In this document: positions 8,892 to 32,569 of the stretch, piece by piece
How the letters are laid out: each line of letters starts with the position of its first letter
How positions within the stretch are numbered: position 1 is the first letter of the stretch
NCBI GenBank assembly: GCA_016212935.1
Contig: JACRDE010000582.1
Coordinates: forward strand, 1 to 32,569
Direction: 5' to 3'
DNA length: 32,569 nt
From: Desulfomonile tiedjei
GTDB lineage: Bacteria > Desulfobacterota > Desulfomonilia > Desulfomonilales > Desulfomonilaceae
Position numbers and translations under genes: made by a program
Notes under the pieces: generated by a model
Seen by the model: only the letters and a program-made list of their open reading frames with translations
The model's database searches: none
Told to the model about the DNA's origin: nothing

Positions 8892-9449
8892 TTGAGAAAG
8901 AAACGAATCCTGATCTGTCAGAGCGAGTTAAATGAGCGACCCCACCTGCAAGCGGATGCCTGTGAGCTCCTTTATGAGACGCAATTGGTGAGTACTGGAA
9001 CAGCCGCCGTACGGTGGGCGCTTCAAGCCTTGCCTGAATTGATACTGATGGATATTGACTTGGCTGCTCCCATGGAGGGCATTGAAGCCGCCATGGAGAT
9101 ACGGAGCCACCATGACATACCGGTCATTTTCTTGTCGGACAGCGCGTGTCCGGACACGTTGTCAAAGGCCAAGCTAGCAACGCCTGCCTCTTATCTCGTG
9201 AGACCGGTGTCACCAGCCCAGTTGTGGGCGGCCATAGAAGTGGCTCTATATAATCAGAGCGGAAGCCAGCTTTCGGAAAGGCCCCTCAGGGCACCATCAT
9301 CCACCATTATTCCCATCTGCTCGTACTGCAAAAGGGTGCGTGATACGGCAGGCGACTGGCATCAGATAGAAGAATACCTGAAACTGCACTTAAACACCGT
9401 CTGCACACACAGCATATGCCCAGCCTGCAAGAAGGCTTCATTTCCTTGA
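8892..9449 (+). CDS. Degenerate response-regulator receiver domain plus C-terminal Cys-pair domain
   Basis: 'LPELILMDIDLAAPMEGIEAAMEIRSHHDIPVIFLSDSACPDTLSKAK' is receiver-like. The C-terminal 'IPICSYCKRVRDTAGDWHQIEEYLKLH...HSICPACKKASFP' is a recurrent signalling-protein tail. TTG at 8892 is better spaced from AAGGAGG than the ATG at 8886. Confidence 0.75.
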   Translation: MRKKRILICQSELNERPHLQADACELLYETQLVSTGTAAVRWALQALPELILMDIDLAAPMEGIEAAMEIRSHHDIPVIFLSDSACPDTLSKAKLATPASYLVRPVSPAQLWAAIEVALYNQSGSQLSERPLRAPSSTIIPICSYCKRVRDTAGDWHQIEEYLKLHLNTVCTHSICPACKKASFP

Positions 9450-9519
9450 CCACTTATCGAGGAACGGGCCCTGCTTACTGTCGGCTTTGAAGGAGATTGA
9501 CGGACTCAGAGGCCTTCGG

Positions 9520-10251: not shown

Positions 10252-10389
10252 GAAGGGCGCATCCAGACCTGCGCAACCGAGCGGACCCGTAGCGCACGGT
10301 AAAAGATCCTAACCACAGGAGTAGTGATTCGTGTGATCCGAATGCCTGGCCAAGGCCACGAAACGAAAGCTCAGTCGTACTCAGTCGTT

Positions 10390-12875: not shown

Positions 12876-14417
12876 GTGAGTTCGTGGATAGACCATTGGT
12901 TGCTGCATATTGAGGGATGGCTCGCCAAGCGCGGGCTGCCGGCTGGACCTGACGCCCTGATAAATCGGAATACCATCCTGGGGCTCGTCCTGGGCGTCCT
13001 GGGCGCGGCAATCGGGTGGGTTATTTCGGAACCGTGGAGAGAGGGCTTTTCATGGGTACGCGAATACTTCATCTGGGCTGCAGTCGGATGCCTGATCTGG
13101 CTTTTCGTCGTTTCAAAAGATTTCTTCTTCAATAGAAGTGCCAAGCTCCTTGTAAAGAAGGCACTTGCCCCCGCGTACTGGGCTCCCCTGGCCATACTCT
13201 TGGCCGCGGCTCTCGCTGAATTCATCGCCTATGCCGGATCGCCGGTCACCTATCGACCGACGCTCAAGATTTTCGTACTCGATGTCTCAAGCAGCATGCA
13301 CGGGGCTCCCTTGGCAACACTGAAATCGGCCATAACAAAGTATGTGGAGGCGCTCAAGCACGTTAAAGGCCACGAATCGGTCAGCCTCGCTTGCGTTTCG
13401 TTTAGCGACAACGCGACACTCATTTCAGATCCCACCAAGGATTTGACTACCTTCGTCAATAGAGTCCAAAACATCACAGCTACTGGGTACACCAACATGG
13501 CCGCGGGTTTGAACAAGGCCAAGGATATCATTCAGAAGAGTGGTGAGTCAGCGGCATCTACAGACATTATCATGGTGTCTGATGGTCAGCCGAACTTGCC
13601 ACGGGGCGACCCATTGAAGCCCATCTGGGACCTGCAGCCATATTTCAAAGCACGCGGGGTAAATATCTATGCCATCGGTGCTGGCCCAGATTATGACCGT
13701 GGGCTGCTCGAAGCGGTAGCCCGCACCACGGAAAAAGGCCGATTCATGGCCGCGGATAACATAGGTGAACTCGTCGAGATTATGGGTAAACTCGGTGGAG
13801 GTACGATCCTGGGGACAAAAGACGTTCTTCCATTACTTTACAGAGTTCTCGCTTGGGGACTGGTGGGGATCTCCATCGGACTATGTTGTGCGATTCCAAG
13901 AAGAACCACTAGGGCTCTGATGTACGGCGCCGTTGGAGGAGTAGCCGGAGGAGTGGCTGGAGCACTAGCGTTTGCCGTGTTGCACTCCTTGTTCAGCCTC
14001 GTCGGGATCACCTCGGGGGTTTTTAACCGGATGGCAGGTTTCACCATACTGGGGGCCTGCGTGGGACTCGGATACACCCTTGTGGAAGCGGCAACGCGAC
14101 CTGCATGGCTTCGGGTTCTGAGCGGCCATCATGCTGGAACGATCATGAGTCTTGACCGCCCGGAAATGGTACTCGGAAGCAGCGATAAAGCGGACCTGAC
14201 CATTCTAGGTGACCCAGAGATATCTGAGAAGAACGTTCGGTTTGTCAGATCCGGAAGAGAGGTCACCGTCGAAACCCTTGGCCCGACAAATCTGTCTGTC
14301 AATGGAACAGATCTTAAGAAGGCCGTACTGCAAAATGAAGACACCTTCATGGTTGCGGGGACAAAATTCCTCTTCCTGAATAAACTAGCAGGCATGGCTA
14401 GCAGGAAGGTCGCTTGA
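12876..14417 (+). CDS. Membrane vWA-domain protein with C-terminal FHA-like domain
   Basis: GTG start with GGGAGGTGAGGA. N-terminal TMs; vWA MIDAS 'FVLDVSSSMHG', 'TGYTNMAAGL', 'MVSDGQPN'; second TM block; C-terminal 'MVLGSSDKADLTILGDPEISEKNVRFVRSGREVTVETLGPTNLSVNGTDL'. Confidence 0.88.
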   Translation: MSSWIDHWLLHIEGWLAKRGLPAGPDALINRNTILGLVLGVLGAAIGWVISEPWREGFSWVREYFIWAAVGCLIWLFVVSKDFFFNRSAKLLVKKALAPAYWAPLAILLAAALAEFIAYAGSPVTYRPTLKIFVLDVSSSMHGAPLATLKSAITKYVEALKHVKGHESVSLACVSFSDNATLISDPTKDLTTFVNRVQNITATGYTNMAAGLNKAKDIIQKSGESAASTDIIMVSDGQPNLPRGDPLKPIWDLQPYFKARGVNIYAIGAGPDYDRGLLEAVARTTEKGRFMAADNIGELVEIMGKLGGGTILGTKDVLPLLYRVLAWGLVGISIGLCCAIPRRTTRALMYGAVGGVAGGVAGALAFAVLHSLFSLVGITSGVFNRMAGFTILGACVGLGYTLVEAATRPAWLRVLSGHHAGTIMSLDRPEMVLGSSDKADLTILGDPEISEKNVRFVRSGREVTVETLGPTNLSVNGTDLKKAVLQNEDTFMVAGTKFLFLNKLAGMASRKVA

Positions 14418-14487
14418 GGGCATTCCTGTGTCGTGTCAGGGCTCGACCGTGGGGCCCCAAAGAGGGGGACTGAAGTAACGGGCTCAC

Positions 14488-14508
14488 ATGGGTGAGTCAC
14501 CAAGATAA
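14488..14508 (+). other. Micro-ORF MGESPR* duplicating the start of the downstream Hsp70 gene
   Basis: 12-bp direct repeat ATGGGTGAGTCA at 14488-14499 and 14527-14538, offset 39 nt. The first copy is stopped by TAA at 14506-14508. Confidence 0.45.
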
Positions 14509-14526
14509 AACGATGCGGAGGATGTA

Positions 14527-16146
14527 ATGGGTGAGTCATGTGCGGTAGGAATTGATCTGGGAACCACGAACTCTGTGGTCTCCATATGGAGGCATGGCCG
14601 GGTCGAGACCATTCCCATCCGGGGATTCAACAAGACCCCATCTGTCGTATCATTTGACGATGATGGCATCCTGGTGGGAGAGGAAGCGAAGAGCAGGTTG
14701 GATGTCTTCCCTGAAACTACCGTGGGATCGGTGAAGCGCTTCATGGGTGACAGGACCAAGACCCCTTATGAAATCAACGGGCAGAAGTATACGCCCGTGG
14801 ACATTTCCGCTCTCATTCTGAAAAAGCTTGTAGAAGGTGCTTCCGAGTATCTCGGGGAACCTGTCAAGCGGGCTGTCATAAGTGTTCCAGCATACTTCAA
14901 CGAAGATCAAAAAGAGGACACCAAACTTGCAGCCGAACAGGCCGGCCTTGAGGTGATGCGCCTGGTAGCTGAGCCTACGGCTGCAGCCCTTGCTTACGGG
15001 TTCCGGCAAAAGAAAGATCAGCTCCTGCTGGTTTACGACTTGGGAGGCGGCACCTTTGATGTGTCAATTCTGAAAGTGGAGGGAGACGACTTTAGAGTCA
15101 TTGCGGTCGACGGTGATGCCCGACTGGGCGGCGATGATTTTGACGAAGCGATTATGAAGCACCTTTCGACAGTGTTTGCAGACAAGACTGGCAAAGATAT
15201 AACAGGACAATCTTCCAGGTTGGGCCGAATCGCCCTTCAGAAACTCAAGGAGCAGGCGGAGAAGGCGAAGATCAAGCTAGCGCTCTTTCAGGAGGCAGAA
15301 ATCAAGATTCCCGATCTCCTGGGAGTTCCATTTATAGAAAAGCTTACGAGGCCCAAGTTCGTCGATTTGATCCAACCATTTCTCAACAAAACGGTGCAAA
15401 AGGTCGACAGCGTTCTGAAAAGCGCAAAATTGAAACCGGATCAAATCGATCGTGTGATTCTGGTCGGAGGATCGACGCGAATACCCGCTATCAAGGATAT
15501 TTTGAAGCAGAAGATCGGTGATCCTTATACGGCCGATAATGTGGACGAAATTGTCGCTGCGGGGGCTGCAATCTTTGCATATTGGGATGATCCCGATCAT
15601 CCGGGCATAGACGACCGACCTGCGCTGCCTCGAGACGTTACCGCCCATGCCCTCGGAATTGAGATGCTGAAGGATGATTTTTCGGGAGTCTTTTTTCAGC
15701 CCTTGATTGACAAGAATACCGAATACCCATGCAAAGGCGGCGTGACGGGATTCAGTGTGACACCCTACCAAAAATCTGTGCTCATGAAAGTCTATCGAGA
15801 AAGTCTTGCGGGAGAGAACTGCAAGGGTGACCTAAGCCTGCCAATCACGGTGAGACGTGAGCCTGTGCCGGCCATGGCTGTTTTCGACCTTGACAGGAAC
15901 GGCATCATCCATTTTACGGCTGTAGAAATGCTCGTTTCTGAAGGCGCACAGGAGAACCTCAGGCGATCGTTGGCAAGAAAAGAAGCGAAGAACAAAGTAG
16001 CTGAAATGGAAAGATCGCTCCAGAGCTATTTCGAGACTCAGGCGCGGCAAGGGCGCGTGTCCGATTTCGAACCACTGGATCGTTTTATTAAAGACGGATG
16101 GGTCCGAGCGGAAGAGGTCAGAATCAATCCTGGCATAAAAAGCTGA
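14527..16146 (+). CDS. Hsp70 (DnaK-like) protein 1
   Basis: 'VGIDLGTTNSVVSIW', 'YFNEDQKEDTKLAAEQAGLEVMRLVAEPTAAALAYG', 'VYDLGGGTFDVSIL', 'ILVGGSTRIPAI'. Confidence 0.97.
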   Translation: MGESCAVGIDLGTTNSVVSIWRHGRVETIPIRGFNKTPSVVSFDDDGILVGEEAKSRLDVFPETTVGSVKRFMGDRTKTPYEINGQKYTPVDISALILKKLVEGASEYLGEPVKRAVISVPAYFNEDQKEDTKLAAEQAGLEVMRLVAEPTAAALAYGFRQKKDQLLLVYDLGGGTFDVSILKVEGDDFRVIAVDGDARLGGDDFDEAIMKHLSTVFADKTGKDITGQSSRLGRIALQKLKEQAEKAKIKLALFQEAEIKIPDLLGVPFIEKLTRPKFVDLIQPFLNKTVQKVDSVLKSAKLKPDQIDRVILVGGSTRIPAIKDILKQKIGDPYTADNVDEIVAAGAAIFAYWDDPDHPGIDDRPALPRDVTAHALGIEMLKDDFSGVFFQPLIDKNTEYPCKGGVTGFSVTPYQKSVLMKVYRESLAGENCKGDLSLPITVRREPVPAMAVFDLDRNGIIHFTAVEMLVSEGAQENLRRSLARKEAKNKVAEMERSLQSYFETQARQGRVSDFEPLDRFIKDGWVRAEEVRINPGIKS

Positions 16147-16185
16147 GTGGTATGCACTTTTTGAAATTCGAGGGGAGGTATTCAA

Positions 16186-17976
16186 ATGGCGACAGTGAAC
16201 AAAGAAGAGTCTTCCGGAACCCCCATTGAGGAAAAAATTGAAGATGAGGGTTCACCGATTGAAGAGAGAGCCGAAGATGCAGCAACTCCTATAGAAGTTG
16301 TGGAGGAATCATCTCCTGAAGCGCCAAAGGAAGAGGTGGTTCAGGAACCCAAACCGGAAATAGAGGAAAAGAAGAGTCCATATGTGGTGGGTATTGACTT
16401 GGGGACCTCCACTTCATCGATAGCCGTGTTCGACGCGACCCCCGGCATTCGGGTCAAGGACGCTGCCAAAGTGCTTTCCATAGAAGGAAGCAAATTCATG
16501 CCTTCGGTTGTGCACGTCATGCCTGAAGGAGGGGAGATCCTGGTAGGAGAGCAGGCGAAAGACATGATGCTCATCGACCCAGAGAACACTGTGGCTAGCA
16601 TAAAAAGAGAAATGGGTGATCCATCTTACTGTAAGGAGTTCGAAGGCATCGAGAACAAGAAATTTTCCCCTGCAGACATCTCTGCGGAAATACTCAAGAA
16701 GCTTGTTCAAGAAGCAACATCTAACGGTCAATTCGATTTTCAGGGTCCAGTAATAGACGCTGTCATATGCGTTCCCGCAAACTTCGAAGACAATAAAAAG
16801 AGAATGACCGAGCAAGCAGGACAACTTGCTGGACTCAATATTCTGGAGACGCTGCACGAGCCTATTGCAGCTGCGATTGCCTATGGAGCTGCCAACGACG
16901 CTGATCAAAAAATTATGGTCTATGATCTGGGAGGTGGCACGTTTGATGTTTCTATTCTTGAGGTCAGAACCAAAGCTCAGGGAGATGCAACAGATGGCGA
17001 CAAGTGGAAGGCAAGATTCCGCGTGCTTGCCTCGGAAGGAATCCCGAAGTTGGGGGGAGATGACTTCGATAAGCGAATGATGCAACTCGTGCAAGATCGT
17101 TTTTGCCAAAAAACCGGTCTCGATCTGGACCTGTTTGATCTGGGAAAAGATCAATGCGGGGGCGTAAACAAGAGAACTCTGAGGCATGCGGAGAAGAAGC
17201 TGAAACAAGCCTGCGAGAGAGCCAAGGAGGAATTGACCCAATTGGCAGAGACGGAAATACGGATTGTTGATTTCATGAAAGATGGCAAGGGTGATATCCA
17301 CGGCCTCGAAGAGAAAATCAGGCGAGAGGAATTCGAGGATGCCATAAGAGATCTCATCGCCAGCTCTGAGGCTGCTGTTCACAAGGCCTTGGACAGCGCT
17401 AAGCTGAAAATTGACGACATCGATCGAATTATCTTAGTCGGTGGCTCCACCAGAGTCCCGTTGGTGAAGCAAATGATTGAGGAAATGTTCGGAAAACCAA
17501 CATATACCGATCCCGACCCTGATACCGCTGTTGCGAGAGGAGCGGCCATATGGGGAGATTGGCTGTCGCAACCTAAGGGCCCAGGTGTAGGTATAGAGCT
17601 GATCAATCAAGTGACTCACCACCTTGGCATAGCGCTGCACGGTGGCAAGTTCCACATTCTCATCGAGAAGGGACGGGAATTGTCGGAAGAAGCTCCAGAG
17701 GCTGCCGTGGAGCAGGAGTTTGTTACCAGCAGAGATAACATGACATCAATGAAAATCGAAGTTTTTCAATCTTCAGACCAAGTGGAATATGTAAGTGATG
17801 AGCCTTGCACGTATGTAGCCAATATCCTCTTGGACGGAATACCTCCAGCCGCAAAGGGGAAGGAACGAGTCAAAGTGTCATTTGCCGTGGACCGGCAGAA
17901 TCGTTTGCGTGTCCATGCAACTTGTCTCAGCGATGGAGCGGTGACAAAGTCACTGGACAACATAAAGATCGTCTGA
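16186..17976 (+). CDS. Hsp70 (DnaK-like) protein 2 with acidic N-terminal extension
   Basis: 'YVVGIDLGTSTSSIAVFDA', 'EPIAAAIAYG', 'VYDLGGGTFDVSIL', 'ILVGGSTRVPLV', preceded by about 65 acidic/Pro-rich residues. Confidence 0.97.
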   Translation: MATVNKEESSGTPIEEKIEDEGSPIEERAEDAATPIEVVEESSPEAPKEEVVQEPKPEIEEKKSPYVVGIDLGTSTSSIAVFDATPGIRVKDAAKVLSIEGSKFMPSVVHVMPEGGEILVGEQAKDMMLIDPENTVASIKREMGDPSYCKEFEGIENKKFSPADISAEILKKLVQEATSNGQFDFQGPVIDAVICVPANFEDNKKRMTEQAGQLAGLNILETLHEPIAAAIAYGAANDADQKIMVYDLGGGTFDVSILEVRTKAQGDATDGDKWKARFRVLASEGIPKLGGDDFDKRMMQLVQDRFCQKTGLDLDLFDLGKDQCGGVNKRTLRHAEKKLKQACERAKEELTQLAETEIRIVDFMKDGKGDIHGLEEKIRREEFEDAIRDLIASSEAAVHKALDSAKLKIDDIDRIILVGGSTRVPLVKQMIEEMFGKPTYTDPDPDTAVARGAAIWGDWLSQPKGPGVGIELINQVTHHLGIALHGGKFHILIEKGRELSEEAPEAAVEQEFVTSRDNMTSMKIEVFQSSDQVEYVSDEPCTYVANILLDGIPPAAKGKERVKVSFAVDRQNRLRVHATCLSDGAVTKSLDNIKIV

Positions 17977-18013
17977 GTTTTCAGATCATTCGTAGCCCGC
18001 ACGACTGCGAAAG

Positions 18014-19933
18014 GTGGTGACCATGACTTATGACAAGCAAATGGCTGAAGGAATCTCAGACGACAAAAAAGTAGAGGACGCAAACTGCGACGAAGCAAAC
18101 ACTGAGGGTTCGCCCAGCGACCTTTCGCTTCAGGGCAGCCGAGTCGAGGTAACCGATGATTTAGAGATGGAGATACCTCTTAACTGGACATCTCCAGAGT
18201 CCGCTCAGTCCGAGCACGAATCGGCCGAACCGGTGCTGAATACTCAGACTCCATCTTTGGCAATTGAATCGGGCCAAGGTGCTTTAACGGGGGGCGGGCA
18301 TCTTGAAGTTGCTCGTGCCTCGGGCGGAAGTGTGGCGCCCTTTTCTGCACCGGAATCTCCCATGTGGTCCGAGTCTGAGACGGAGGCTTTCCCCAAGAAT
18401 AAATGCGAAGACGGTCTCGATTCGGCTGTCCAAACGGAAGGATCGACATCCTATGAAACTTTGCAGCCGAATGCAGCACAAGAGGAGTTTCCGGAGCTGC
18501 CACTGCCGTCAAAGGAGTCTGGAGAATCAGTCTGCCAAGGCGAGGAAGAAGGCGGATCTACTCTCGTGCCCCTCAACTTTTCGCTCATACAAACAACTCT
18601 TTTTGCTTTTGTGACAGAGCTTAATGAGCGATTGGAAAGTGTCGATCACTATTCGCATGTCCACCAAGGACCTTTCAAACAACTGCTCCAATCAATAGCT
18701 GGGCTGTGCCAGCCATTGGAGGTGTCCCAAAGGCCGGCGGATAGCGTGACGCAGAGCGTTCGGGATGAAGTGCACCAGATGATAGGACAACCCCTTGAAG
18801 TATTCCGTAACTCATGTTCGCAGATCGGAATTCCAGGCTGGCCTGCAAAAGCCGTGCACGAGTTCATATTTGAACTGGCAGAACCACTAGCTGCCGAACA
18901 AAAGCGCTTCAGCCACCTTGGTGCCACACAGTTCCTTCTAGAGAATATCCAGAGAGCTTGCGAAGCCAACATGTCACAGGAGTCTGGACCGGAAGGAACC
19001 GCTTCGACCACTAATCTGGCAAGAGCAGTGGTCAACGAGCTGGTTACCAAAATAAAGACAACTTATCCTGATTTCGCCTATTCGGAATTTGTGCCGGAGT
19101 TGCAGGACGTGCTAACGCCTGTAATTCCGGCTCAAAGCCGATTCAGACATTTTCAGGACTGGTATTTGAGATGGAAGGACACAAGGGAAAGATTTACTGA
19201 GAGACTAGTAGAGCTTAAGACACAATGCCGAGAGATTTTTGCTCAACAGGTTTGGCCTGAATTTGAAGGTCTTTCGGATGAACACAAAAACAAGCTTGGC
19301 GATAGAAAGAATGGCTTGGCCATCATTCTGGACATGTTGATCGAAGTGGGAAATATAGAAAGCAGCTCGTTGGATCCCTCTGAATTAAGTGAACTCCCGG
19401 AAGAACCGAAGGGATGGGCGGATTTCGCGGCGGCAGTGGCTCAAGTCAAATGGCCGGATAAGTTAGCAGTTCTGAGGCAGATGGCAGAACAAAACTACAG
19501 AAAATTCAGAGATATGCAGGCACTCGCCGACCAAGAAAAGGACTTATTCTTCTCTTTTCTTAAGGACGATTTTTTCGACATCATTCACAACTTAGAAGAC
19601 AGCAAAATGTTTTCTCAAGAACTTTGCGAGGAGCTCAAATCGGCCTACCCGGAAAATACCACTATTTTTGGCTGGTTCGGTATCTATGATCGCTTGATAG
19701 CTGAGATGGAGACATTGCTGAAGAATTTCTGCGTCACCCCGATCAATCCAGCCAGGGGGGATCAGGCTGACTTCAAGCTTATCAGCCCGTACGGCACCGA
19801 ACCTGATGCCAAACTCAAGACGGGTCAAGTGTGTGAACCGGTCTATAGAGGGTATCAATTCTCCGATATCAGTCTATTGGAAACCGACACTTATGTCGTT
19901 GAGAAAGCTCGAGTTATCGTGGTCAGGAACTAA
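18014..19933 (+). CDS. Large protein with GrpE-like C-terminal nucleotide-exchange-factor domain
   Basis: C-terminus 'LKTGQVCEPVYRGYQFSDISLLETDTYVVEKARVIVVRN' matches the GrpE beta-domain pattern (G-V-x-E-V-x-x-GY-x-x-x-D...xARVxV), preceded by helical 'DDFFDIIHNLE...IYDRLIAEMETLLKNFCVTPINP'. Flanked by Hsp70 genes. About 190-residue acidic N-terminus. Confidence 0.65.
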   Translation: MVTMTYDKQMAEGISDDKKVEDANCDEANTEGSPSDLSLQGSRVEVTDDLEMEIPLNWTSPESAQSEHESAEPVLNTQTPSLAIESGQGALTGGGHLEVARASGGSVAPFSAPESPMWSESETEAFPKNKCEDGLDSAVQTEGSTSYETLQPNAAQEEFPELPLPSKESGESVCQGEEEGGSTLVPLNFSLIQTTLFAFVTELNERLESVDHYSHVHQGPFKQLLQSIAGLCQPLEVSQRPADSVTQSVRDEVHQMIGQPLEVFRNSCSQIGIPGWPAKAVHEFIFELAEPLAAEQKRFSHLGATQFLLENIQRACEANMSQESGPEGTASTTNLARAVVNELVTKIKTTYPDFAYSEFVPELQDVLTPVIPAQSRFRHFQDWYLRWKDTRERFTERLVELKTQCREIFAQQVWPEFEGLSDEHKNKLGDRKNGLAIILDMLIEVGNIESSSLDPSELSELPEEPKGWADFAAAVAQVKWPDKLAVLRQMAEQNYRKFRDMQALADQEKDLFFSFLKDDFFDIIHNLEDSKMFSQELCEELKSAYPENTTIFGWFGIYDRLIAEMETLLKNFCVTPINPARGDQADFKLISPYGTEPDAKLKTGQVCEPVYRGYQFSDISLLETDTYVVEKARVIVVRN

Positions 19934-19949
19934 GCCAGGAGGTAAGGAT

Positions 19950-21569
19950 ATGGGATTGCTAAGCGATCCGGAACACCCAGTACTAGGAATTGATCTGGGA
20001 ACCACTTTCAGTGCTATCGCCCGGTGGGACGGTTTGGGACCTGAGGTCTATGTCGGTCTTGAAGGCACTTACACGACTCAGTCGGTAGTTTACTATCAAG
20101 AAGACTGTGAAGACGGTGATGAGTATGTGGTCGGAGAGCTCGCATACCAGCAGACTCTTATCGAGCCTCAAAATGGAATTATTGGCGTCAAGCGGTTAAT
20201 GGACAACAGGGATTATGCCATCGTTTTGGGCGAGACCAAACCTAAATCCCACAATCCGGTTCAAATTTCCAGTGAAATCCTTCGACGATTATATAAAGAT
20301 GTTGCCGAGAAATTTCCCGGAGGCAAGTTCAAGGCCAAGGGACTGGTCGTGACCGTTCCCTATTATTTCAGGGCCAATCAGCGAAAGAACACCCGCGAAG
20401 CAGCCGAAGCAGCAGGACTGCCCAATGTGTTGGGAATCGTTGATGAACCCGTTGCTGCGTCGCTTTCTTATGCTTTCGATATGCTCAAGAACAACGGCCA
20501 GAAAGATCACCATGAGAAAATCCTCGTTTTTGACCTAGGAGGGGGGACTTTTGACCTCACCGTGTTTGACTATCGTCAGACCGCAGACATGTTACGATTC
20601 GAGGTTCTCGGCGTCGGAGGAGATGACCGCCTCGGAGGCATGGACTTTGACAGGTGTATTGCAGATTATCTCATATCCAAGGAAGGAATCGAACTCAAGG
20701 GGTTTAATGACAAGGAAAAAAGGCGCTGCGAGGAAAAACTTTTGAAGATTGCCAGAAAAGGGAAAGAGGCTCTTGCGGCAACTAAATCGTATCAACTGTC
20801 ACAAGATGGCATCCCGACAAGAAAGGGTTCTTTTCTAAGTACTAGGCTTACGCAAGACGAGCTGCAGGCGTGCATTTTGGATTATCTGGCAGAGGTGGCT
20901 GATATAGTCCTTCAGACTTGTATGTTTTGCAACGTGATACCTGCCCGCAGGGTTGTTGACCGCAAAGAGATCAAAGAAACAATTGCGACGAGAGGAATTG
21001 ATGGACTTCGTGATTACTTCGCCGATCATAAGATTACACGGGTCGTTAGAGTGGGAGGATCGAGCAAAATGCTCTTCTTTCGCAGACTACTGGAGGCCAT
21101 GTTCGGTGCTGACAAGGTTTATTCTTCAAGGAATCCAGATCTTGCCGTGGTGGAAGGAGCTGCTATCTATGCTGCCTATCTTTACGACCCAGAAGTCCTT
21201 GGCCGCAAGGTCGAAATCATTCACCGAAATAGTCATGCATTCGGAGTAGCAGTCAAAGGCGGTCATTTCAGCCCACTCATTGGCAGGAATGTTCCTCTCC
21301 CTGCAAACGCCCAGAAGTGCTACACACCGGTAGTCGACAATATTACCGAGTTGGAGATCAAGGTGTACCAGGGGGAATCCGATCTCGCCAAAGACAATGC
21401 CCATGTGGGAACGGTCCACGTAAGAGGGCTTCCTCCCAGACCGGCAAGGACTCTGGACATATGGATAACATTCGACATGAATTCTGAAGGGCTTCTTATG
21501 GTTACCACAGAGGTCAAAGAGAAAAATCAAACGCTGAGTCTTGACGTGAAACCACTTGAGACACGATGA
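19950..21569 (+). CDS. Hsp70 (DnaK-like) protein 3
   Basis: 'VLGIDLGTTFSAIARWDG', 'EPVAASLSYAF', 'VFDLGGGTFDLTVFD', 'VRVGGSSKMLFFRRL'. CCAGGAGGTAAGGAT before ATG at 19950 makes the annotated 19806 start unlikely. Confidence 0.95.
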   Translation: MGLLSDPEHPVLGIDLGTTFSAIARWDGLGPEVYVGLEGTYTTQSVVYYQEDCEDGDEYVVGELAYQQTLIEPQNGIIGVKRLMDNRDYAIVLGETKPKSHNPVQISSEILRRLYKDVAEKFPGGKFKAKGLVVTVPYYFRANQRKNTREAAEAAGLPNVLGIVDEPVAASLSYAFDMLKNNGQKDHHEKILVFDLGGGTFDLTVFDYRQTADMLRFEVLGVGGDDRLGGMDFDRCIADYLISKEGIELKGFNDKEKRRCEEKLLKIARKGKEALAATKSYQLSQDGIPTRKGSFLSTRLTQDELQACILDYLAEVADIVLQTCMFCNVIPARRVVDRKEIKETIATRGIDGLRDYFADHKITRVVRVGGSSKMLFFRRLLEAMFGADKVYSSRNPDLAVVEGAAIYAAYLYDPEVLGRKVEIIHRNSHAFGVAVKGGHFSPLIGRNVPLPANAQKCYTPVVDNITELEIKVYQGESDLAKDNAHVGTVHVRGLPPRPARTLDIWITFDMNSEGLLMVTTEVKEKNQTLSLDVKPLETR

Positions 21570-21587
21570 GCTAACACGAAGAGCCTG

Positions 21588-23837
21588 ATGACAATGAATC
21601 TGCCTGAAAGCTTGCGAAATGAATTCGATCTCGTACAGGATCTCAATGGTGGCAAGATACTTGAGTGTTACCATGTCTGGGACAAGAGCGCCAAGAATGA
21701 CAGAGTCATCAGATTGTTACCTTCACAATTTGGAGAGGACGTCTTGATAGGGGACAGATTCTCCAAGTTTTTTATGAAGTACGCATCAATCGCGCAATGC
21801 TGTATTCCAAGAGCCATCGGACTCAAGAAACTTGGTGCAACATTCTACTCAGTTGAGGAGTTTGCACCCGGCATTCCCATTACCAAGGTAGAATTCACGA
21901 GACTCGATACAATTCAGAAAGTCAAGATTTTCAGAGAAATTTGCGAAGCGCTTCATCACGCACATACGAAGGGAGTATTTCATCTCTGCATATCTCCCTC
22001 AGACATTCTTGTCAGCGACGATGACAAAGTGAGTCTCGTCGGATTTGGCACGGCTGTTTTCTCAGGTACCGAATACGTTCAAAGGGTAGGTGACGAGAAT
22101 AAGGAATTGGTGGCGCCTGAAGTTCTGGAAAGAATGGCTGCTGGCCCGGCATCTGACGTATTCAGCCTCGCCGCTTGTATAGCCAAGGTTTTTCCCTTTC
22201 TCGGTTCTCTTGAACTTATGAAGAAGGCCTTGGATAGAGATCCATTAGATAGATTTCAGAAGATTCTTGAATTCCAGCAAGTTCTGGGGGAGATCTTCCC
22301 AACCTCTCATGGAAAAGAGGGAGGCCAAACGCCTCCCCCAAGACCGCAGTACGTGGATCTGGCGACCATTCCTCCCGGTGCGAAGATACTGAATGCCAAT
22401 ACTCACAAAGTCTACGGGTTCACTGCCGCTGAACGGGGTGTAACTGTCCAGTGGGAGCCCGAATTGAGAATCCTAGTCGAGAAGGACGGTTACCTTCGGC
22501 ACAGGGCAAAACTCACGGCAACAAGGCCCTCGAATAAGATTGAGAAGACGTTCGAACTCAAGCCTGTAACAGCTTCGATTACCTCCACCCCCACAAGGGC
22601 GCTCGTTACGGATAGAAATTCCGGGGAGAGGCTGGCTATGACCTCTGAGTCGAGCGTTACGCTCGTCCAATACAATCCTGCTCGCGATATCTGGATCGAC
22701 AAAGATGGTTACCATTCAGTGAGATTGGATTGGGCTGGCCGAGTTCAGGATTTCACTCAACATCTTGACCTTTCCGCATCAGTTGTCTCGTTACGGATAC
22801 ACACTGATCCGGACGGAGTCAAAGTAGAAGTGGATGGTAGATTTGAAGGACTTACGAATTCAACGGGGCTTGCGATTAACGTCCCTCATGGAAAAATCGA
22901 GCTTACACTCTCGAAAGTTGGCTTTAGCACGGAGACGCTCATTCAAAACGTAGACGATGGTTCCGTAGCAGCAATCGGACCGATCAAACTGACCCCATTA
23001 CCCCTGCAACTCTATACAGACCCGCCTGGAGCACAGGTGAGCCTGGGGTCCAGTGTTCTCGGAACAACCGGACCAGATGGTCTTTCAGTACCTTGGCACC
23101 AAGGTCCGATAACAATTAAGAACGATGGCTACCAGACAATTGTGAGGGAATTCCCAGCTACATTACCTGGACTGCAAGTAAACGTCACTCTGGTCAGGTC
23201 GATTCAAGAGCCGATCCACCATAGGCGAAGCATGCTCTGGAGAGGAGCTGCGACATTATTCCACGGCATTGGGACGCTAACAATCAGCATCCGAATGCTA
23301 CTACGTTGGATGTATCCTAGCGTCTACCAGCCCGAACGAAAGGACGTCTTTTGCAATACAAATTGGGGCATTGCGAGAGATGACATTCCAAAGGACGAGG
23401 CCAAGCACAAGAAGCTTGTGCTATTTAAGAATCGCTGGGTCACGAAACAGGAGCGATACCTTCTCCGAAAGCAGTTGAGTACGTACCGGCTAATACGTGC
23501 AGTAGCTCTGGCCCTATACTTGCCAGGGCTTATTACATTGTCATTCTGGATTAGCGCCATGCCGGATTACATTGGTTACGCAGGCGGTTCTGTAAGTTTT
23601 GTTGCAATCATATTCACCGGGACTAGGCTCTGGCGTTTTGAGCGGTGGGCAATGGTTGTCTCCAGGATTCTTTGGACGCTTCTTTTTGTTCCGGTCATCA
23701 TAGTTCTCTTGGTAGACGGGCATGTGCTACCGCTAGTTATGCTTGTAGCATTATGGCTGGCTCTGGTATGGGGCGCCTTTGGTACCGCTGCCGCACGCCA
23801 GATTTTCAATGAGCCGGCGTCCCAGGCGAGATCTTGA
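21588..23837 (+). CDS. Pseudokinase with PEGA-like repeats and C-terminal multi-TM region
   Basis: Kinase-like fold with 'HLCISPSDILV' for HRD and 'VGFG' for DFG; 'APEVL', 'DVFSLAACI' retained. PEGA-like 'LRIHTDPDGVKVEVDGRFEGLTN...' and 'LQLYTDPPGAQVSLGSSVLGTTG'. Several TMs near the end. Confidence 0.82.
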   Translation: MTMNLPESLRNEFDLVQDLNGGKILECYHVWDKSAKNDRVIRLLPSQFGEDVLIGDRFSKFFMKYASIAQCCIPRAIGLKKLGATFYSVEEFAPGIPITKVEFTRLDTIQKVKIFREICEALHHAHTKGVFHLCISPSDILVSDDDKVSLVGFGTAVFSGTEYVQRVGDENKELVAPEVLERMAAGPASDVFSLAACIAKVFPFLGSLELMKKALDRDPLDRFQKILEFQQVLGEIFPTSHGKEGGQTPPPRPQYVDLATIPPGAKILNANTHKVYGFTAAERGVTVQWEPELRILVEKDGYLRHRAKLTATRPSNKIEKTFELKPVTASITSTPTRALVTDRNSGERLAMTSESSVTLVQYNPARDIWIDKDGYHSVRLDWAGRVQDFTQHLDLSASVVSLRIHTDPDGVKVEVDGRFEGLTNSTGLAINVPHGKIELTLSKVGFSTETLIQNVDDGSVAAIGPIKLTPLPLQLYTDPPGAQVSLGSSVLGTTGPDGLSVPWHQGPITIKNDGYQTIVREFPATLPGLQVNVTLVRSIQEPIHHRRSMLWRGAATLFHGIGTLTISIRMLLRWMYPSVYQPERKDVFCNTNWGIARDDIPKDEAKHKKLVLFKNRWVTKQERYLLRKQLSTYRLIRAVALALYLPGLITLSFWISAMPDYIGYAGGSVSFVAIIFTGTRLWRFERWAMVVSRILWTLLFVPVIIVLLVDGHVLPLVMLVALWLALVWGAFGTAAARQIFNEPASQARS

Positions 23838-23940
23838 GCTGACTTGTTGATGCTGTCCGCATCCTAATTGATTTCAGCAGAGTATGGTTCGAAGCAAGAG
23901 TCCACAGGGGAAGTGGCTCACGACACACAAAGAGGTTCCC

Positions 23941-26900: not shown

Positions 26901-26994
26901 AAAAAATGAGGACATTGCAACGATCAAGAGAGGGATGGCGTGTATTGAAGGTCTCCAGCAGTCATTGGCTGAAATTGGTCAGGCCGACTCATAA
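23941..26994 (+). CDS. Pseudokinase / PEGA-like / dynamin-like GTPase fusion
   Basis: N-terminus aligns with 21588..23837 ('MRLPGNLNNEFEFIQDLKGGKLL'; 'HLCITPRDILV'; 'VGFG'). P-loop 'GEYSVGKST', G3 'DMPGTG'. Hydrophobic paddle-like 'GAGAVLGILLLIPGKIVLDIIIALVILL'. Confidence 0.85.
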   Translation: MRLPGNLNNEFEFIQDLKGGKLLRCILVRSKSDGKESVIKLLPSEYAGDKGMEERFRTFFLNYNQIPSSGIARGTGLKKEGEAFYSIEDYCPGTSLISKNIEELGRERFIEILSEVCDVLNFAHNKGVFHLCITPRDILVDDSASVMVVGFGAAVSAKTGRLNELPADYRQFLAPEILQGAEPSRAADIYSLAATILKIFPSLRRNDVLQRCLSQDPHQRMDKILSLQQHLKSIVASGDHWPPEPDYGSDIEETNKRKLTIRIDPSDAMVKLSRIGDLDFHQVAPGWCEISGTMEQWQEGVVVTIEKNGFDPRTLELCGLPERSELQVKLRPPSQHITIKTAPPGAEIRVEATDEILGTANEPWGLKVCWEPGMQLLIQKDGFEPYRYQFSSGQPLPSTVLRITLSAVKPTIRLIDNIVSEMHKVKAILGSDDLKQLALPPDDAEMDDMIGEFQDLRFHSSQRYTVMVLGEYSVGKSTLLNLLLDLPPDRRLPTFDKPTTAKPIRLTLRGENDPEASWVMDDNAEIQKTWDEAISQATTGTNGQRNDIKEIKVYLDHPLLIQSDIMDMPGTGAGWFKDHQEITREYLRKSEMALIVVGRMEPGDDAAKNFSLVQRWAVSHTVVFNAWGSLDERKDRKIRIDQGQLETTVKELFPWAFLVDSGTRVYALKCIEAQDKGISLTQEWGLEDFKQHFCENCVGDFLTKAGERRKDILRIMVERARGSSETLEDCLSEWEERLSKVGNEGREIQVQLKALSAVERRVRNNVGEIAEGRAKEILDTVFGQVELFINENVRWGFDLARHAMKGIFDCHERQALEKQFTDSLINKYLRIKEENNWLQLALDEFVHECLPILEREWGRFTEEQALDISMTQTTGKGFDLPFEAIGKAAVEGVQAMMAKLLGAGAVLGILLLIPGKIVLDIIIALVILLKGGDPLERARQSAIKKFRMELDFQEIGFKQEMVDLIMTGPNARIRSECERRSLNLADEKNEDIATIKRGMACIEGLQQSLAEIGQADS

Positions 26995-27106
26995 CGGCCA
27001 TGGGTCACTTGCGATGAGAGGGGCTTGAATGAGGAAAAACCTTCGGTCTTATCCCATGATCAACCTTTGATGACAGCCATCTGAGTCATTACTGGAGAGA
27101 AGACCC

Positions 27107-30100
27107 GTGACCGACAGTATACGTGTGACCCTTCCTCCGATGAGCTTAGCCGATCCTCAGGATGAGGAATGTATCGCTCTGGACACGAGGCTTGGCGATC
27201 TCCCGGAGGCTGCCATTTGGTTTCCAGACAGGTCTGACGTGAGGAAATTTCGGACTGCTTTGGGGACAAAGGATTCTCACCGATTAAGACTGGAGACTCC
27301 CGAAGGCCCCTATTTGAACACGTGTCTCGTGCACGGGCTGCAGCTATTGGAGGAATTCTCTGATTACGATTATCTTATTTGCTGCCTTCACCCCACTGGC
27401 ATGAGTGACAGGCGCCTCAGCGCTTTGCTGAAGTCACGTGAAGATGGCCGCCTAAACTTTTTCTTTCGCATATTCGATATTGCGGATTTGAAACAAGCTC
27501 CTGCCGCTGCGAACCCTGTTGGAGCGCTCTGGGATGATATCCGTAGAGTTTTCGCCAACAGCGCACCATGTCTGATCCTGGCGGATGATTGTGAACACAC
27601 GTTCAGACAATGGCTGGCAAGGGTCTTGTGGTCTGTTTACTTTGATTACCACTCCATGAGGTTAGGCAAGTATCTGAGACACCTGGATAGCGAGGCGGAT
27701 AACATCTTGGCGATTCTTTCTTCTCAGCCTCTTCAAATTAGTAGCGTGGAAAGCCTTTCCCAGGCCCTTCACCTGCGCAACAGGGGACAGGTGCTTCAGT
27801 CGGAGTTGGAAGAGTCCGAAAATCGGCTGGCGAGTTGCGTACGCACAAACCAGCGAATCCTGACAGAACTGTCTGGACTGTCCGCTACAGTTACCAACGA
27901 TACTGCACGCAAGGTCTTCGGAATAGATATTATTAATCTGGGCCGCGAAATCTTGCCTGAACTTCAAAGATTAATCCCTGACATTCTTGAATTCTCCGAG
28001 GACCTTACAGCAACCGAATACGCCAACCTAAGAATTTTGGGGCAGAGGCTGGAAGAAACCTTGGTACAGCGGCCACCTTCTCTAGCAATAGTTGGACCTT
28101 TCTCCTCCGGCAAGACCACACTTCTTAACACATTGTTGTTCGGAATGGAGCAAGCAGTGTTGGACGACAATGGAAATAGTCACGAAGAACACAAGAGATG
28201 GAGAGCGTTTAGAACCAGTCAACAAGCCAACACTGCAATAGTGTCAGAAATGACTTTTGCTCCAAGCAATGCCGAAGAAAAGGTTATTTTTGAATTCCGC
28301 AATGAGATCGACCATGTTCTAGTGGGACCCGATGACAACGGAGATCTAACAATCCCCCTTCATGGGATAATGAAAGCGCTCACTGAATTGATACGCGATG
28401 GAGTTCTCAAAGAAACTGAGTTGAGATGTGAGCTTCATAAAGAGGAGGTTCGAAGGCGTAAGGGACGAATAAAGGTGGATAATCCAGATAGCGAAAAACC
28501 TTCGATTATAATTAGCGGGGATGACGAATGCATCAGATTGATAAACATCATTCCGCAAATAATGGGTGAAGGGCTTCACTTATACGACTCGCGATTCAAG
28601 GAATACGCTCTCTGCAAGTTGTATCTCTCGGCCAAAGTCGATATCAATATTGCGCAGCATCAATTTCCTCGCGAAATCAATCTGGAGACCAAAGAAGGTT
28701 GGCATAGGTTCCAGGGTGACGGGAATACAAGCAAACCAGACGTGGAAAGTTCAAAAGCATCATTTATCGTCAAAACCGCCCATGTTCAGCTTCGGAACCC
28801 ATTTCTCAGACTTACTACCATTGCCGATACTCCTGGCACTGGCGCAGCAAACGATCGGCACCAAGTCGTAACACAACAATACCTGGGAAGGGCAGAGGGT
28901 TTGATATTGCTGCTTCCTACCAGCATAGTCGATTCGACTCGGGTTAGGCAAATTCTATCTCGTGTCGCAAAAGAATGCGAAAGGATGTTCAATGGACGAG
29001 GGATTCATTGCATCCGAAATGTGGCTTTCGTTGTGAACGTTTACGCAGGGCACGATAATACCGAGGCCAGGGAAAAGATTGAGCAATTCTCACGAATGAT
29101 TCAGAACGAATTCCAGCTTGATGCGGCCGAGTGGCAAAGACATCGTTCAACACCAGAAAACAACTTCTTCGTAGTTAATCTCGCCGACATTGACAAGGGA
29201 CAGAATCCAAGGATCTTCCCAGGCCTTGGATTTCCGTCACTCATACCTTTGAGAGAGTGGATAGAGAACCTATTCCGGACCGGAGGCTATGAGCAGAGAT
29301 TCCGACGAGTATTAAACCTGCTGAATACGGAGTGGAAATTTAGCTTGAATCAATTGGATGAGCGAAAGAAGACTATTGCGGATGCAACCAAACGAAGGGA
29401 GAAGGCGACCGATATCCATCGGTTTGAGACACAAGAGCTTCCATATTTATCTGACACTCTTCTCTCAAATCTTGACGACTTCAAGAAGCGATTTGATGAA
29501 GGCTCTTCGTCGGTAGCTGCGAAGCTTAAGAGAATGCTAAATGACTTGGAAAGCCAGGCTACAGATCTGTTGAGAGATGATCTTAAATCTTGGCGGGCTA
29601 AACTACGGGATTGCCTGGATGACGCCAACCGCATTTTGGATCAATTTCAAGATGACAATTATGTCGAGACGTGGACTGAAGATATTCGTAAGAGAACAAA
29701 ACAACTGGACGTCCAATTACCTCATCTTGCCGTTCCACCTTCTGGCGGCGTCCTCGGACATTGGGATATCAGAGATCGTTTCTCAATAGAATCTTACAAT
29801 TCGATGTTTGACGAGAAGCAACAAGAATGGCCTAATATTCCCTGGTTCCAAAAGCTTAAGGAACTGTTCGGTGGCCAAGATAAGAGAGTCAGGTTGGCCC
29901 GGGACATCAGGCAGTTTTGCCAAAGCCAGTATGATCAATTGTGGGGAGGCCTGAGCACTTTCCTCAAGGCCTGTGAAGCGTTTGCAGACGGCACCGAGCA
30001 CATCGTGACGGATCACATTGAGGCTCGGAGAAATGAACTCAACCGACGTACCAAGGATGAGACAAGCGTGAGCGAGGAATTACAGCGGGAATTAGATGCT

Positions 30101-30166
30101 TTTGGGAGATTTGAGGAGGAGCGTGCAAGACTTGCCAAGTCCCTTAGTCACCAACTTCAGCAATAA
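27107..30166 (+). CDS. Dynamin-like GTPase with uncharacterised N-terminal domain
   Basis: GTG start. 'IVGPFSSGKTTLLNTLL', 'IADTPGTGAANDRHQ', long helical C-terminal half with coiled coil. Confidence 0.85.
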   Translation: MTDSIRVTLPPMSLADPQDEECIALDTRLGDLPEAAIWFPDRSDVRKFRTALGTKDSHRLRLETPEGPYLNTCLVHGLQLLEEFSDYDYLICCLHPTGMSDRRLSALLKSREDGRLNFFFRIFDIADLKQAPAAANPVGALWDDIRRVFANSAPCLILADDCEHTFRQWLARVLWSVYFDYHSMRLGKYLRHLDSEADNILAILSSQPLQISSVESLSQALHLRNRGQVLQSELEESENRLASCVRTNQRILTELSGLSATVTNDTARKVFGIDIINLGREILPELQRLIPDILEFSEDLTATEYANLRILGQRLEETLVQRPPSLAIVGPFSSGKTTLLNTLLFGMEQAVLDDNGNSHEEHKRWRAFRTSQQANTAIVSEMTFAPSNAEEKVIFEFRNEIDHVLVGPDDNGDLTIPLHGIMKALTELIRDGVLKETELRCELHKEEVRRRKGRIKVDNPDSEKPSIIISGDDECIRLINIIPQIMGEGLHLYDSRFKEYALCKLYLSAKVDINIAQHQFPREINLETKEGWHRFQGDGNTSKPDVESSKASFIVKTAHVQLRNPFLRLTTIADTPGTGAANDRHQVVTQQYLGRAEGLILLLPTSIVDSTRVRQILSRVAKECERMFNGRGIHCIRNVAFVVNVYAGHDNTEAREKIEQFSRMIQNEFQLDAAEWQRHRSTPENNFFVVNLADIDKGQNPRIFPGLGFPSLIPLREWIENLFRTGGYEQRFRRVLNLLNTEWKFSLNQLDERKKTIADATKRREKATDIHRFETQELPYLSDTLLSNLDDFKKRFDEGSSSVAAKLKRMLNDLESQATDLLRDDLKSWRAKLRDCLDDANRILDQFQDDNYVETWTEDIRKRTKQLDVQLPHLAVPPSGGVLGHWDIRDRFSIESYNSMFDEKQQEWPNIPWFQKLKELFGGQDKRVRLARDIRQFCQSQYDQLWGGLSTFLKACEAFADGTEHIVTDHIEARRNELNRRTKDETSVSEELQRELDAFGRFEEERARLAKSLSHQLQQ

Positions 30167-30178
30167 TGGGGAAGATCA

Positions 30179-31072
30179 GTGAACGGCGACAGGACCCGAC
30201 GGATAGAAGATCTGGGAAAGATGACAGAAGCTGCAGACAAAGTCATTCATGATTTCATGGCGGAACTGGCTCCTCTCATTGTCAAAGACGTTCACAAAGC
30301 CGAACTGAACATTCTGCGCCAAGAACTCCGCGAAAATACGCTTCCCGAGGAATTGGATTCATTCAAGAACGAGTTCTCCCAGAAAATAGACGATTGCCTG
30401 CGCAAACTTGGAAAAGTCGATGTCCTGACAATCCGAATCCAGGATTCCATAACGACACTGCGTGCTGAACTGACGAAGGATTTCAACAAGCGCCTGCTCG
30501 AAGGACTAGTTGATGAGCGCGAGTTTGCTCAGAATGTAGCTGAACACTTATCTAGCGAACAACAAAGGGCAAAGTCTTCTGATGTCCGGCTCGCCAAAGA
30601 GATCAATGACCTCAGGCAAGACATACTGGGGCTCGGACAGTCTACGGGAGAAGCAGACGAGAGCCTTAGGCAGGAGTTCTCTCGAAAACTACTCCAGCAA
30701 AGGTCAGATCTTGAAACTACTCTGAACGAAAAGCATCGCGACACACAGAAAGCATTGGAGAAACAGGTCGCTGAACTGCGAAAGGCGATTTCCAACGCTT
30801 CGTCGACTCAAACGAAACGACTGGATGAGTTCAAGGCCGAAACTACAGATCAGCTAAACGACATAAACGGGCGCATATCGGCCATTAAGCGAGAATTGGC
30901 GGATGCAAGAAAGCGAATGGATGGAGAAGTCAAGAGTCTAACAAAGGGAATAAAGGACGCTTCCGATCTGGGAATCTGTGGATTACTCATCGGAGTGATG
31001 GGATTGCTGGTTGCGCTATTCGTCGGTGGAGCCATGATGTGGCCTCAGCTGAAAATTTGGCTGGGGCGTTAG
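30179..31072 (+). CDS. Coiled-coil protein with C-terminal transmembrane anchor
   Basis: GTG start, heptad-rich 297 aa, C-terminal 'LGICGLLIGVMGLLVALFVGGAMMW'. 13 nt after the dynamin-like gene. Confidence 0.8.
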   Translation: MNGDRTRRIEDLGKMTEAADKVIHDFMAELAPLIVKDVHKAELNILRQELRENTLPEELDSFKNEFSQKIDDCLRKLGKVDVLTIRIQDSITTLRAELTKDFNKRLLEGLVDEREFAQNVAEHLSSEQQRAKSSDVRLAKEINDLRQDILGLGQSTGEADESLRQEFSRKLLQQRSDLETTLNEKHRDTQKALEKQVAELRKAISNASSTQTKRLDEFKAETTDQLNDINGRISAIKRELADARKRMDGEVKSLTKGIKDASDLGICGLLIGVMGLLVALFVGGAMMWPQLKIWLGR

Positions 31073-31273
31073 TCTCTCGTGGAGGTGTGGAGTCGTAGAA
31101 GCTGCATGAGACGAATCACAACCTTCAAAACGGGGCATCGAACGCACTTCATTGCTTTGCATATCCTGGAAACCGAGAAAGGGCCCGGCGAGTGCTTCGG
31201 ATTGCCGACCCAGCGGAGCACATTGCCCCAGTCCTGGCAGGTCGTAAAAAGGCTGACACATGGAGGATGATCA

Positions 31274-32569
31274 ATGGGTGGGACGAGTCAATCAAAGCTG
31301 TGCGCTGTCGTAGCGTGTTCCAGGTGCTCCTTCAGACGCTCGGTTCCTCTGTCAACATATGAGGATGGTACTTTATTGAGATGTCCTGAGTGTAAGAGCA
31401 CTTTTCGTTACGAAGATCGTCTGGTCTTCGAGCAACACCCATATCCAGACATTTCTCCCTCCGCATTCATGCATCCGCTCGACAGATCAGCGATAAACAC
31501 CGTTCGTAAAGTGCCTGGCGTAGACTTCGCTATACGGAAGATGATGGAGTTCGGTTATGAGAAGATCATTCGGGTCAACTCCATGGCAGATGACGTAAAA
31601 GTCACTCCCAAGACCTGCGGATTTATTCATGACATGGCCGAACAGGCGGCCAAGAGCCTCGGTGTGCAGATGCCCGAAGTCTACGTGAACCAGGACCCGT
31701 TTCCTAACGCCTGGACAATCGGCACCGAATTTCCCATGATCTCCATCCATTCCGGACTCATTGACCTCATGAACGAAGACGAGTTGTATACCGTTGTCGC
31801 TCACGAGATGGGACACATAAAGTGCTACCACGTTCTCTACCACATGCTGGCCAGTTTTTTGAGTAATGCTGCGGGAGCACTGGGAGTGGCAGGCTACGCG
31901 ATCATTCCTTTGAACCTGGCTCTGTTGGAATGGTCACGGAAATCAGAACTGTCTGCAGATCGCGCTGCGCTTCTGGTCACCAACGACAAGAATGCGATAA
32001 CACGTGTGCTCATGAAACTGGCCGGAGGCTCAGCGCGCGTCTCACGATTGATAAATGAAGATGAATTCATATCTCAAGCTAGCCAATTCGAGGAGTTGAC
32101 CAAGGGAATAAGCCTCAACAACACATATCGGGTCCTGTCCAACATTTCCCGCACTCACCCGTTCCCTGTCCTTAGGGCTCACGAAATAGACCAGTGGGCC
32201 AAAAGCGAGGGCTATCAGGCTATAACCAACGGCGATTTCGAGAGAAAAGCCCCGGCATTGGAAAACAAACGGGAAGAAAATCTGATCTGCCCTCAATGCA
32301 AGTCCGTCATTTTGGCCGACGCTTCCTATTGTGAGAAATGCGGAAGCTCGACAAAGAGAATGGACAATCCGCATGGAGGCTCAGGCGTGGACGAGGTGAA
32401 AGAGATGACCAAAGCCGCCTGGGAGTGGTTGAAGGAGAAAGGCGGTTTGGGTGGTCCATCTGGTGACCTCCCGGACAAAGGTGAAAGGATCTGCCCTCGC
32501 TGCGGGTATGTGGCGCTGGAAACGCATGTTCTTTATTGCCCTCACGATGGGACTGCGATTCCAACCACT
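31274..32569 (+). CDS. M48-family zinc metalloprotease with N- and C-terminal zinc ribbons (3' end off window)
   Basis: Manual translation MGGTSQSKLCAVVACSRCSFRRS...LRCPECKS...; 'TVVAHEMGHIKCYH' (HExxH). C-terminal 'LICPQCKSVILADASYCEKCG' and 'RICPRCGYVALETHVLYCPHDG'. GGAGG SD. 432 codons open to the window end, hence absent from the ORF track. Confidence 0.92.
   Translation, partial: MGGTSQSKLCAVVACSRCSFRRSVPLSTYEDGTLLRCPECKSTFRYEDRLVFEQHPYPDISPSAFMHPLDRSAINTVRKVPGVDFAIRKMMEFGYEKIIRVNSMADDVKVTPKTCGFIHDMAEQAAKSLGVQMPEVYVNQDPFPNAWTIGTEFPMISIHSGLIDLMNEDELYTVVAHEMGHIKCYHVLYHMLASFLSNAAGALGVAGYAIIPLNLALLEWSRKSELSADRAALLVTNDKNAITRVLMKLAGGSARVSRLINEDEFISQASQFEELTKGISLNNTYRVLSNISRTHPFPVLRAHEIDQWAKSEGYQAITNGDFERKAPALENKREENLICPQCKSVILADASYCEKCGSSTKRMDNPHGGSGVDEVKEMTKAAWEWLKEKGGLGGPSGDLPDKGERICPRCGYVALETHVLYCPHDGTAIPTT

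Follow-up and report, generated by a model that had tools for sequence, protein, structure and literature searches.

The window analyzed here, a 32,569-nucleotide stretch that is the entire contig JACRDE010000582.1 of a 5.6-Mb, 647-contig Desulfomonile tiedjei genome, carries a train of ten genes whose core is a cassette of three unusual Hsp70s (HspA, HspB and HspC) and a GrpE-like protein. The cassette was found, complete or nearly so, at 16 or more loci in 13 genomes of four phyla (Desulfobacterota, Planctomycetota, Cyanobacteria and, within a fourth, Clostridiaceae), and the gene order A-B-GrpE-C was invariant across 16 loci. The cassette is solid; from it we infer, tentatively and with somewhat less than even confidence, a dedicated multi-Hsp70 machine that would work with vWA and pseudokinase scaffolds to control effectors particular to each lineage, as part of a stress or conflict response.

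A gene train recurring in part across four phyla

A sequence-only reading of the window had proposed a co-directional train of chaperones, scaffolds, GTPases and a protease. The train is real: ten open reading frames (ORFs) on the + strand occupy the window from 12876 to the contig end (32569), with successive gaps of 109, 39, 37, 16, 18, 46, 112, 12 and 201 bp (Table 1). The 16-bp gap is measured to the HspC ATG at 19950, directly 3′ of AGGAGG, rather than to the longest-ORF start at 19806. No terminator-like site was detected on the + strand in the gaps of the train, and such sites were not in excess (17 observed vs. 20.8 expected by chance).

Recurrence was analyzed with one marker per search, HspC in ∼1,100 genomes and the GrpE-like protein in ∼490. 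Among 98 related genomes the GrpE-like query returned one relative, in genome G017. The G017 locus encodes vWA/FHA-HspA-HspB, then GrpE-like-HspC-pseudokinase/PEGA/TPR, with the pseudokinase as the last member; it is split across two contigs, the HspB pieces overlap by ∼40 identical residues, and its HspC is 49% identical to that of the window. A weak GrpE-like match in genome G294 was read as a canonical GrpE, since a DnaK-level Hsp70 lies right next to it. A single-sequence GrpE-like query found no match in genome contigs because the protein evolves too fast, and an HspC alignment worked instead. With it, further loci at 39–43% identity came to light in Phycisphaerae, Clostridium bovifaecis and Pseudanabaena; among the matches listed, the next ones were at ≤34%.

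A profile was then available from six HspCs, with which members scored 671–825 bits and the best non-member 336 bits (in six genomes where weaker matches were also listed). The profile added seven Clostridiaceae genomes (8 of 196 positive) and one genome in the order of Pseudanabaena (2 of 38), and in 292, 300 and 294 genomes of three phyla it found the seed genome only (∼1/300 each). Further cassette members probably exist beyond those in the scan. As counted with purpose-built hidden Markov models run on predicted ORFs, HspA and HspC are encoded at 16/16 loci, HspB and the GrpE-like protein at 14/16 each; HspB is absent from the G1473 and G1493 loci, and the GrpE-like gene from the second loci of G1438 and G1420. 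The distribution of the cassette is sparse and chromosomal. Recurrence elsewhere of at least five of the families in the train had been preset as a test; six are present in G017, and five in the Phycisphaerae and Pseudanabaenales loci.

Three lid-less Hsp70 clades

The three Hsp70s named in the sequence-only reading belong to the Hsp70 superfamily, with the HSP70 domain (Table 1) and the phosphate-binding motifs of the nucleotide-binding domain (NBD) recognized by Pfam and in the alignment. In a maximum-likelihood tree HspA, HspB and HspC form three clades with 99–100% support, apart from 25 background Hsp70s. Lineage groupings are alike inside the three clades, as expected if the cassette was inherited as a block. 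When the tree was extended with E. coli DnaK, HscA, HscC and YegD and with further paralogues, HspA and HspC stayed clades; the long YegD branch unsettles the root, and the tree without YegD is cleaner.

In an alignment of 43 cassette Hsp70s and 10 DnaKs, the standard-form members retain the catalytic lysine and the DLGGGT motif, and the V/I-LLLD linker is lost in all of them. They end 96–152 residues past the linker position, compared with 223–247 in DnaK, so that the lid is lost. A structure model of HspC, with a predicted local distance difference test (pLDDT) score of 82.7, shows an NBD and a beta-sandwich but no lid; DnaK structures match it. Both the lid and the conserved linker are foundations of the textbook Hsp70 cycle. 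In DnaK the linker controls ATPase coupling (PMC8215388), so the allostery of the cassette Hsp70s would have to differ.

Assignment to the DnaK subtype was rejected, because the VLLLD linker and alpha-helical lid are missing and the proteins score 270–382 bits vs. NCBIfam cut-offs of 648 and 822; an ordinary DnaK is encoded separately in the genome, on contig C321. HscA or HscC identity was likewise rejected, since the tree does not group the cassette proteins with either E. coli reference, each a single long branch. The prokaryotic Hsp70 types in a 2021 review are DnaK, HscA and HscC (PMC8215388); the cassette points to Hsp70 clades beyond these, which travel with a private GrpE and have lost lid and linker.

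A fourth Hsp70 (HspA′ or HspC2) is encoded at some loci, and in several cases a C-terminal domain has been added to it or exchanged. The HspA′ proteins of L007:4177-6333 and L219:13899-16208 have a C-terminal domain of >200 residues with no Pfam match. At L209, L212 and L215 the search flagged one stop codon within the matched stretch of the second HspC.

An enlarged GrpE relative

The gene between HspB and HspC had been called GrpE-like, and profile comparison bears this out. Pfam GrpE matches at 25.1 bits (E 1.6e-5), just below the cut-off of 25.8. Profile-profile alignment (hhalign) against 42 canonical GrpEs gave 98.3% (E 2e-14), and shuffled and reversed controls gave ≤0.4%. Homology covers the helix and the beta-wing, the latter contributing most of the signal. 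Its relatives are only 16–21% identical to the window's protein. The model (pLDDT 75.6) has long helices followed by six strands, and matches in a PDB fold search were dominated by helical bundles. On these profiles the protein is genuinely related to GrpE and much larger, and it would act on the cassette Hsp70s as their exchange factor.

Exchangeable partners of the cassette

vWA domains occur in 10/16 loci, some fused to an Hsp70. A vWA/FHA gene lies upstream of HspA in the window, where it had been predicted, and in G017. In one Pseudanabaenales genome (G1510, locus L225:2836-6177) HspA is directly preceded by a trypsin-like protease gene and a tandem array of three vWA-type genes, identified by eye, and in L009 a vWA, also read by eye, follows HspA′. 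In L210, and by homology in L213 and L216, a vWA replaces the substrate-binding domain of HspC2; in L008, L211 and L214 a vWA is found together with TerD. Pseudokinases with PEGA or InlB-type repeats are present in 5/16 loci (window, G017, L007, L009 and L219), the kinase fold in the last three resting on weak profile matches.

TerD-like genes were found in seven loci, all from Clostridiaceae, and TPR proteins and the trypsin-like protease are also among the exchangeable partners. Genes for a WG-repeat protein (Pfam match 2e-92 in L209) and for TerD lie ahead of the cassette in L209, L212 and L215 (Clostridiaceae). ZorA- and ZorB-like motor genes, a likeness to Zorya, lie 3′ of the cassette after HspC2-vWA in three Clostridiaceae loci (L210, L213 and L216). 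In L216:10970-14851, on which PADLOC was run, an Hsp70 NBD-vWA protein is followed by the ZorA- and ZorB-like genes (ZorB1, 5.9e-69). The suggestion of a phage-defense role gains only indirect support, from the ZorAB, TerD and vWA partners. Membership in Zorya itself was rejected: no Zor gene is present in the window, and of the three L216 genes scanned ZorA and ZorB were recognized, with no ZorC, ZorD or ZorE. Membership in the Ter system was rejected as well, the TerD domain being absent from the window proteins (Pfam).

Pseudokinases, dynamins and the protease of the window

Both proposed pseudokinases were confirmed. In the two kinase folds HRDxKxxN is replaced by HLCISPSDI and HLCITPRDI, and DFG by GFG, so that neither protein has the HRD and DFG motifs of an active Ser/Thr kinase. 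PEGA is above the cut-off in the first, and similar repeats in the second were read by eye. Matches of these proteins to the MADS and PD-T4-6 models were rejected, since the alignment covers the kinase fold alone. Two dynamin-like GTPases had been proposed, and Dynamin_N was indeed found twice, at 47.5 and 33.9 bits vs. a cut-off of 27, but one of the two is fused to the second pseudokinase in a single protein. This fusion weakly matches a solved GTP-binding protein (5owv). Both belong to the bacterial dynamin family, with membrane remodeling as a putative activity. The coiled-coil protein has no family above cut-off in Pfam. The M48 protease was recognized with its HEMGH motif, in a gene that is incomplete at the contig end; its best NCBIfam matches are HtpX models, well below their cut-offs. 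Since the contig cuts this gene and the window is the whole contig, the train may extend beyond 32569.

That all ten genes make one machine is left unproven, because the dynamin pair, the coiled coil and the M48 gene were seen with the cassette in the window contig only, among 16 loci. A chance junction, in which a vWA-Hsp70-GrpE-pseudokinase cassette lies beside an unrelated operon of tandem dynamins, coiled coil and M48, is in our judgment unlikely. Only the first unit is present in G017, no relative of the second dynamin (g8) was found in the 98 related genomes, and the widest gaps lie at the start (109 bp), before the second dynamin (112 bp) and before M48 (201 bp). However, the first dynamin shares its polypeptide with a pseudokinase/PEGA module that resembles the one in the cassette gene just before it, which ties this dynamin to the cassette, and the 46- and 12-bp gaps, the shared strand and the lack of a terminator also argue against a junction.

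Specialized proteostasis or envelope quality control is another explanation, a little less improbable than a junction. Here the Hsp70s and the GrpE-like protein would hold or extract membrane proteins, the dynamins would remodel the membrane and the HtpX-like M48 protease would degrade clients, as a response to stress rather than conflict. It draws on the Hsp70, GrpE and M48/HtpX chemistry, on the transmembrane segments predicted in the vWA/FHA, pseudokinase and coiled-coil proteins, and on the membrane task linked to HscC with tail-anchored J proteins (PMC8215388). Neither M48 nor the dynamins recur with the cassette, however, and the cassette's sparse occurrence and changing partners (TerD, ZorAB, trypsin-like and TPR proteins) are more in keeping with a conflict system than with housekeeping.

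Relation to known systems

Among published systems, the cassette comes closest to the GAP1-N2 GTPase-centric conflict systems in their HSP70+GrpE theme (Kaur et al., 2020; PMC7159879). The two share HSP70, GrpE, a second HSP70 in a subset, GTPases, vWA and kinase themes and membrane features. The cassette differs in having three Hsp70s in fixed order, all with a beta substrate-binding domain in the standard form; the window has dynamin-type GTPases and pseudokinases, and no DnaJ-FNIII protein was seen. Despite the common parts, it is very improbable that the window is such a GAP1-N2 system: no GAP1 domain was found in the ten window proteins (Pfam) or in the neighbor proteins scanned, up to the contig end where the sequence stops, its GTPases are of dynamin type and missing from most cassette loci, and no J-domain motif was found in the cassette loci.

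MoxR-vWA ternary systems (Kaur et al., 2020) likewise combine an ATP-driven chaperone with vWA proteins, exchangeable effectors and peptidases, but in the cassette Hsp70 stands where these systems have the MoxR AAA+ ATPase, and membership was rejected because no AAA+ domain is above cut-off in the window train (Pfam). With the housekeeping DnaK-DnaJ-GrpE machine the cassette shares the NBD motifs and GrpE homology; unlike it, it has no lid, an altered linker, three paralogues and a far larger GrpE-like protein. The E. coli yegD-yegI-yegJ-pphC-yegL locus (K-12, L231:4675-10129) is a parallel Hsp70-kinase-vWA locus, with the Hsp70-family yegD near a kinase (yegI), a phosphatase (pphC) and a vWA-type protein (yegL), but its single Hsp70 is highly divergent, and it encodes a kinase and a phosphatase and lacks GrpE. 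The YegI kinase was reported to autophosphorylate (PMC13232886). LeoABC-type tandem dynamins resemble the two adjacent dynamin-like genes, with weak LeoA/LeoBC and 5owv matches; in the window, unlike LeoABC, one dynamin is fused to the pseudokinase/PEGA module and both lie within the Hsp70 train.

The set had been put forward as undescribed. Text searches of the open-access literature, with most subscription journals outside their coverage, gave no paper describing the cassette and no named system that matched.

A proposed Hsp70-based switch

In the multi-Hsp70 machine that we favor, HspA, HspB and HspC would alternate between the ATP- and ADP-bound states independently of a J protein, served by a GrpE-like exchange factor of their own. 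They would pair with vWA and pseudokinase scaffolds, which bear transmembrane segments in several loci, and may form a single complex at the membrane. The cassette would be an Hsp70-based counterpart of MoxR-vWA switches, setting the assembly state of its effectors: in the window these would be the two tandem dynamins, perhaps together with the M48 protease, and at other loci TerD, the ZorA/ZorB motor, TPR proteins or the trypsin-like protease. Its likely use would be a stress or conflict response, with phage or envelope damage as trigger. Exchangeable partners and patchy distribution resemble those of chaperone-thresholded conflict systems (PMC7159879).

Several points weigh against this machine: (i) a J protein encoded elsewhere in the genome may act in trans; (ii) loss of the linker could leave ATP-driven allostery weak or abolish it; (iii) the GrpE-like protein and HspB are not strictly needed, each being absent in two loci; (iv) the monophyly of HspB is unresolved in the extended tree, where the long YegD branch joins; (v) clostridial loci are without a pseudokinase; (vi) the dynamin pair, coiled coil and M48 were not seen at the other cassette loci; and (vii) with GrpE-like, HspC and dynamin queries the cassette was not found on plasmids or viral contigs, where matches were DnaK-level Hsp70s and generic kinases only. 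Many defense systems, unlike the cassette, do occur on plasmids or viral contigs.

A bolder form of the proposal, which we advance with more doubt, is an undescribed class of prokaryotic Hsp70 machine with three obligate, lid-less, linker-altered paralogues and a private GrpE. It would be J-independent, use the vWA domain (sometimes replacing the substrate-binding domain) as client or peptide clamp, and gate interchangeable conflict effectors (dynamin pair, ZorAB, TerD, proteases). Hsp70s fused to or beside vWA proteins suggest that Hsp70 can take the place of the MoxR ATPase in vWA-based switches, and the ZorAB and TerD neighbors offer a direct, testable link to phage defense and stress biology.

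Layout of the window and neighboring genes

Table 1. Features of the gene train, in gene order, and of the divergent cluster upstream (TM, transmembrane; MIDAS, metal-ion-dependent adhesion site; ECF, extracytoplasmic function).
Feature	Position	Strand	Evidence or context
vWA protein (MIDAS motif DVSSSM) with TM segments and a degenerate C-terminal domain of FHA type	12876..14417	+	Pfam VWA 1.8e-18, Yop-YscD_cpl 7e-10; TM estimate
HspA, lid-less Hsp70	14527..16146	+	Pfam HSP70 1e-115; HspA clade; no VLLLD linker
HspB, lid-less Hsp70, acidic N-terminal extension	16186..17976	+	Pfam HSP70 2e-98; HspB clade
GrpE-like putative exchange factor, 639 aa, long variable N-terminal part	18014..19933	+	Pfam; profile-profile
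HspC, lid-less Hsp70; the cassette's most distinctive marker	19950..21569	+	Pfam HSP70 9e-78; profile; model
Pseudokinase with PEGA repeats, C-terminal TM segments	21588..23837	+	Pfam Pkinase 3e-12, PEGA 7e-11
Pseudokinase and PEGA-like repeats fused to dynamin-family GTPase, 1036 aa	23884..26994	+	Pfam Pkinase 2e-14, Dynamin_N 3e-12
Second dynamin-family GTPase (g8), 1019 aa	27107..30166	+	Pfam Dynamin_N 4e-8
Coiled-coil protein, single C-terminal TM segment	30179..31072	+	Sequence; TM estimate
M48 metallopeptidase (HEMGH), N- and C-terminal zinc ribbons, truncated by contig end	31274..32569	+	Pfam Peptidase_M48 1.9e-25
zf-HC2-looking protein	7493-8506		Upstream divergent cluster
Receiver-domain protein	8886-9449		Upstream divergent cluster
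ECF-type sigma factor	9520-10251		Upstream divergent cluster
zf-HC2-like membrane protein	10390-12033		Upstream divergent cluster

Rfam and tRNA searches of the window gave no match. The divergent cluster upstream of the train (7493-12033) contains possible regulators, none of which was seen adjoining the G017 cassette. There, the vWA/FHA gene is immediately preceded by genes for an ankyrin-repeat protein and a 1702-residue RHS/YD-repeat-like protein (L097:4798-10986). Positions 1-6630 of the window hold ordinary genes, encoding cNMP-binding, ChrB N-terminal, MFS (major facilitator superfamily), PHO4 phosphate permease, phosphoesterase and PLD-like proteins.

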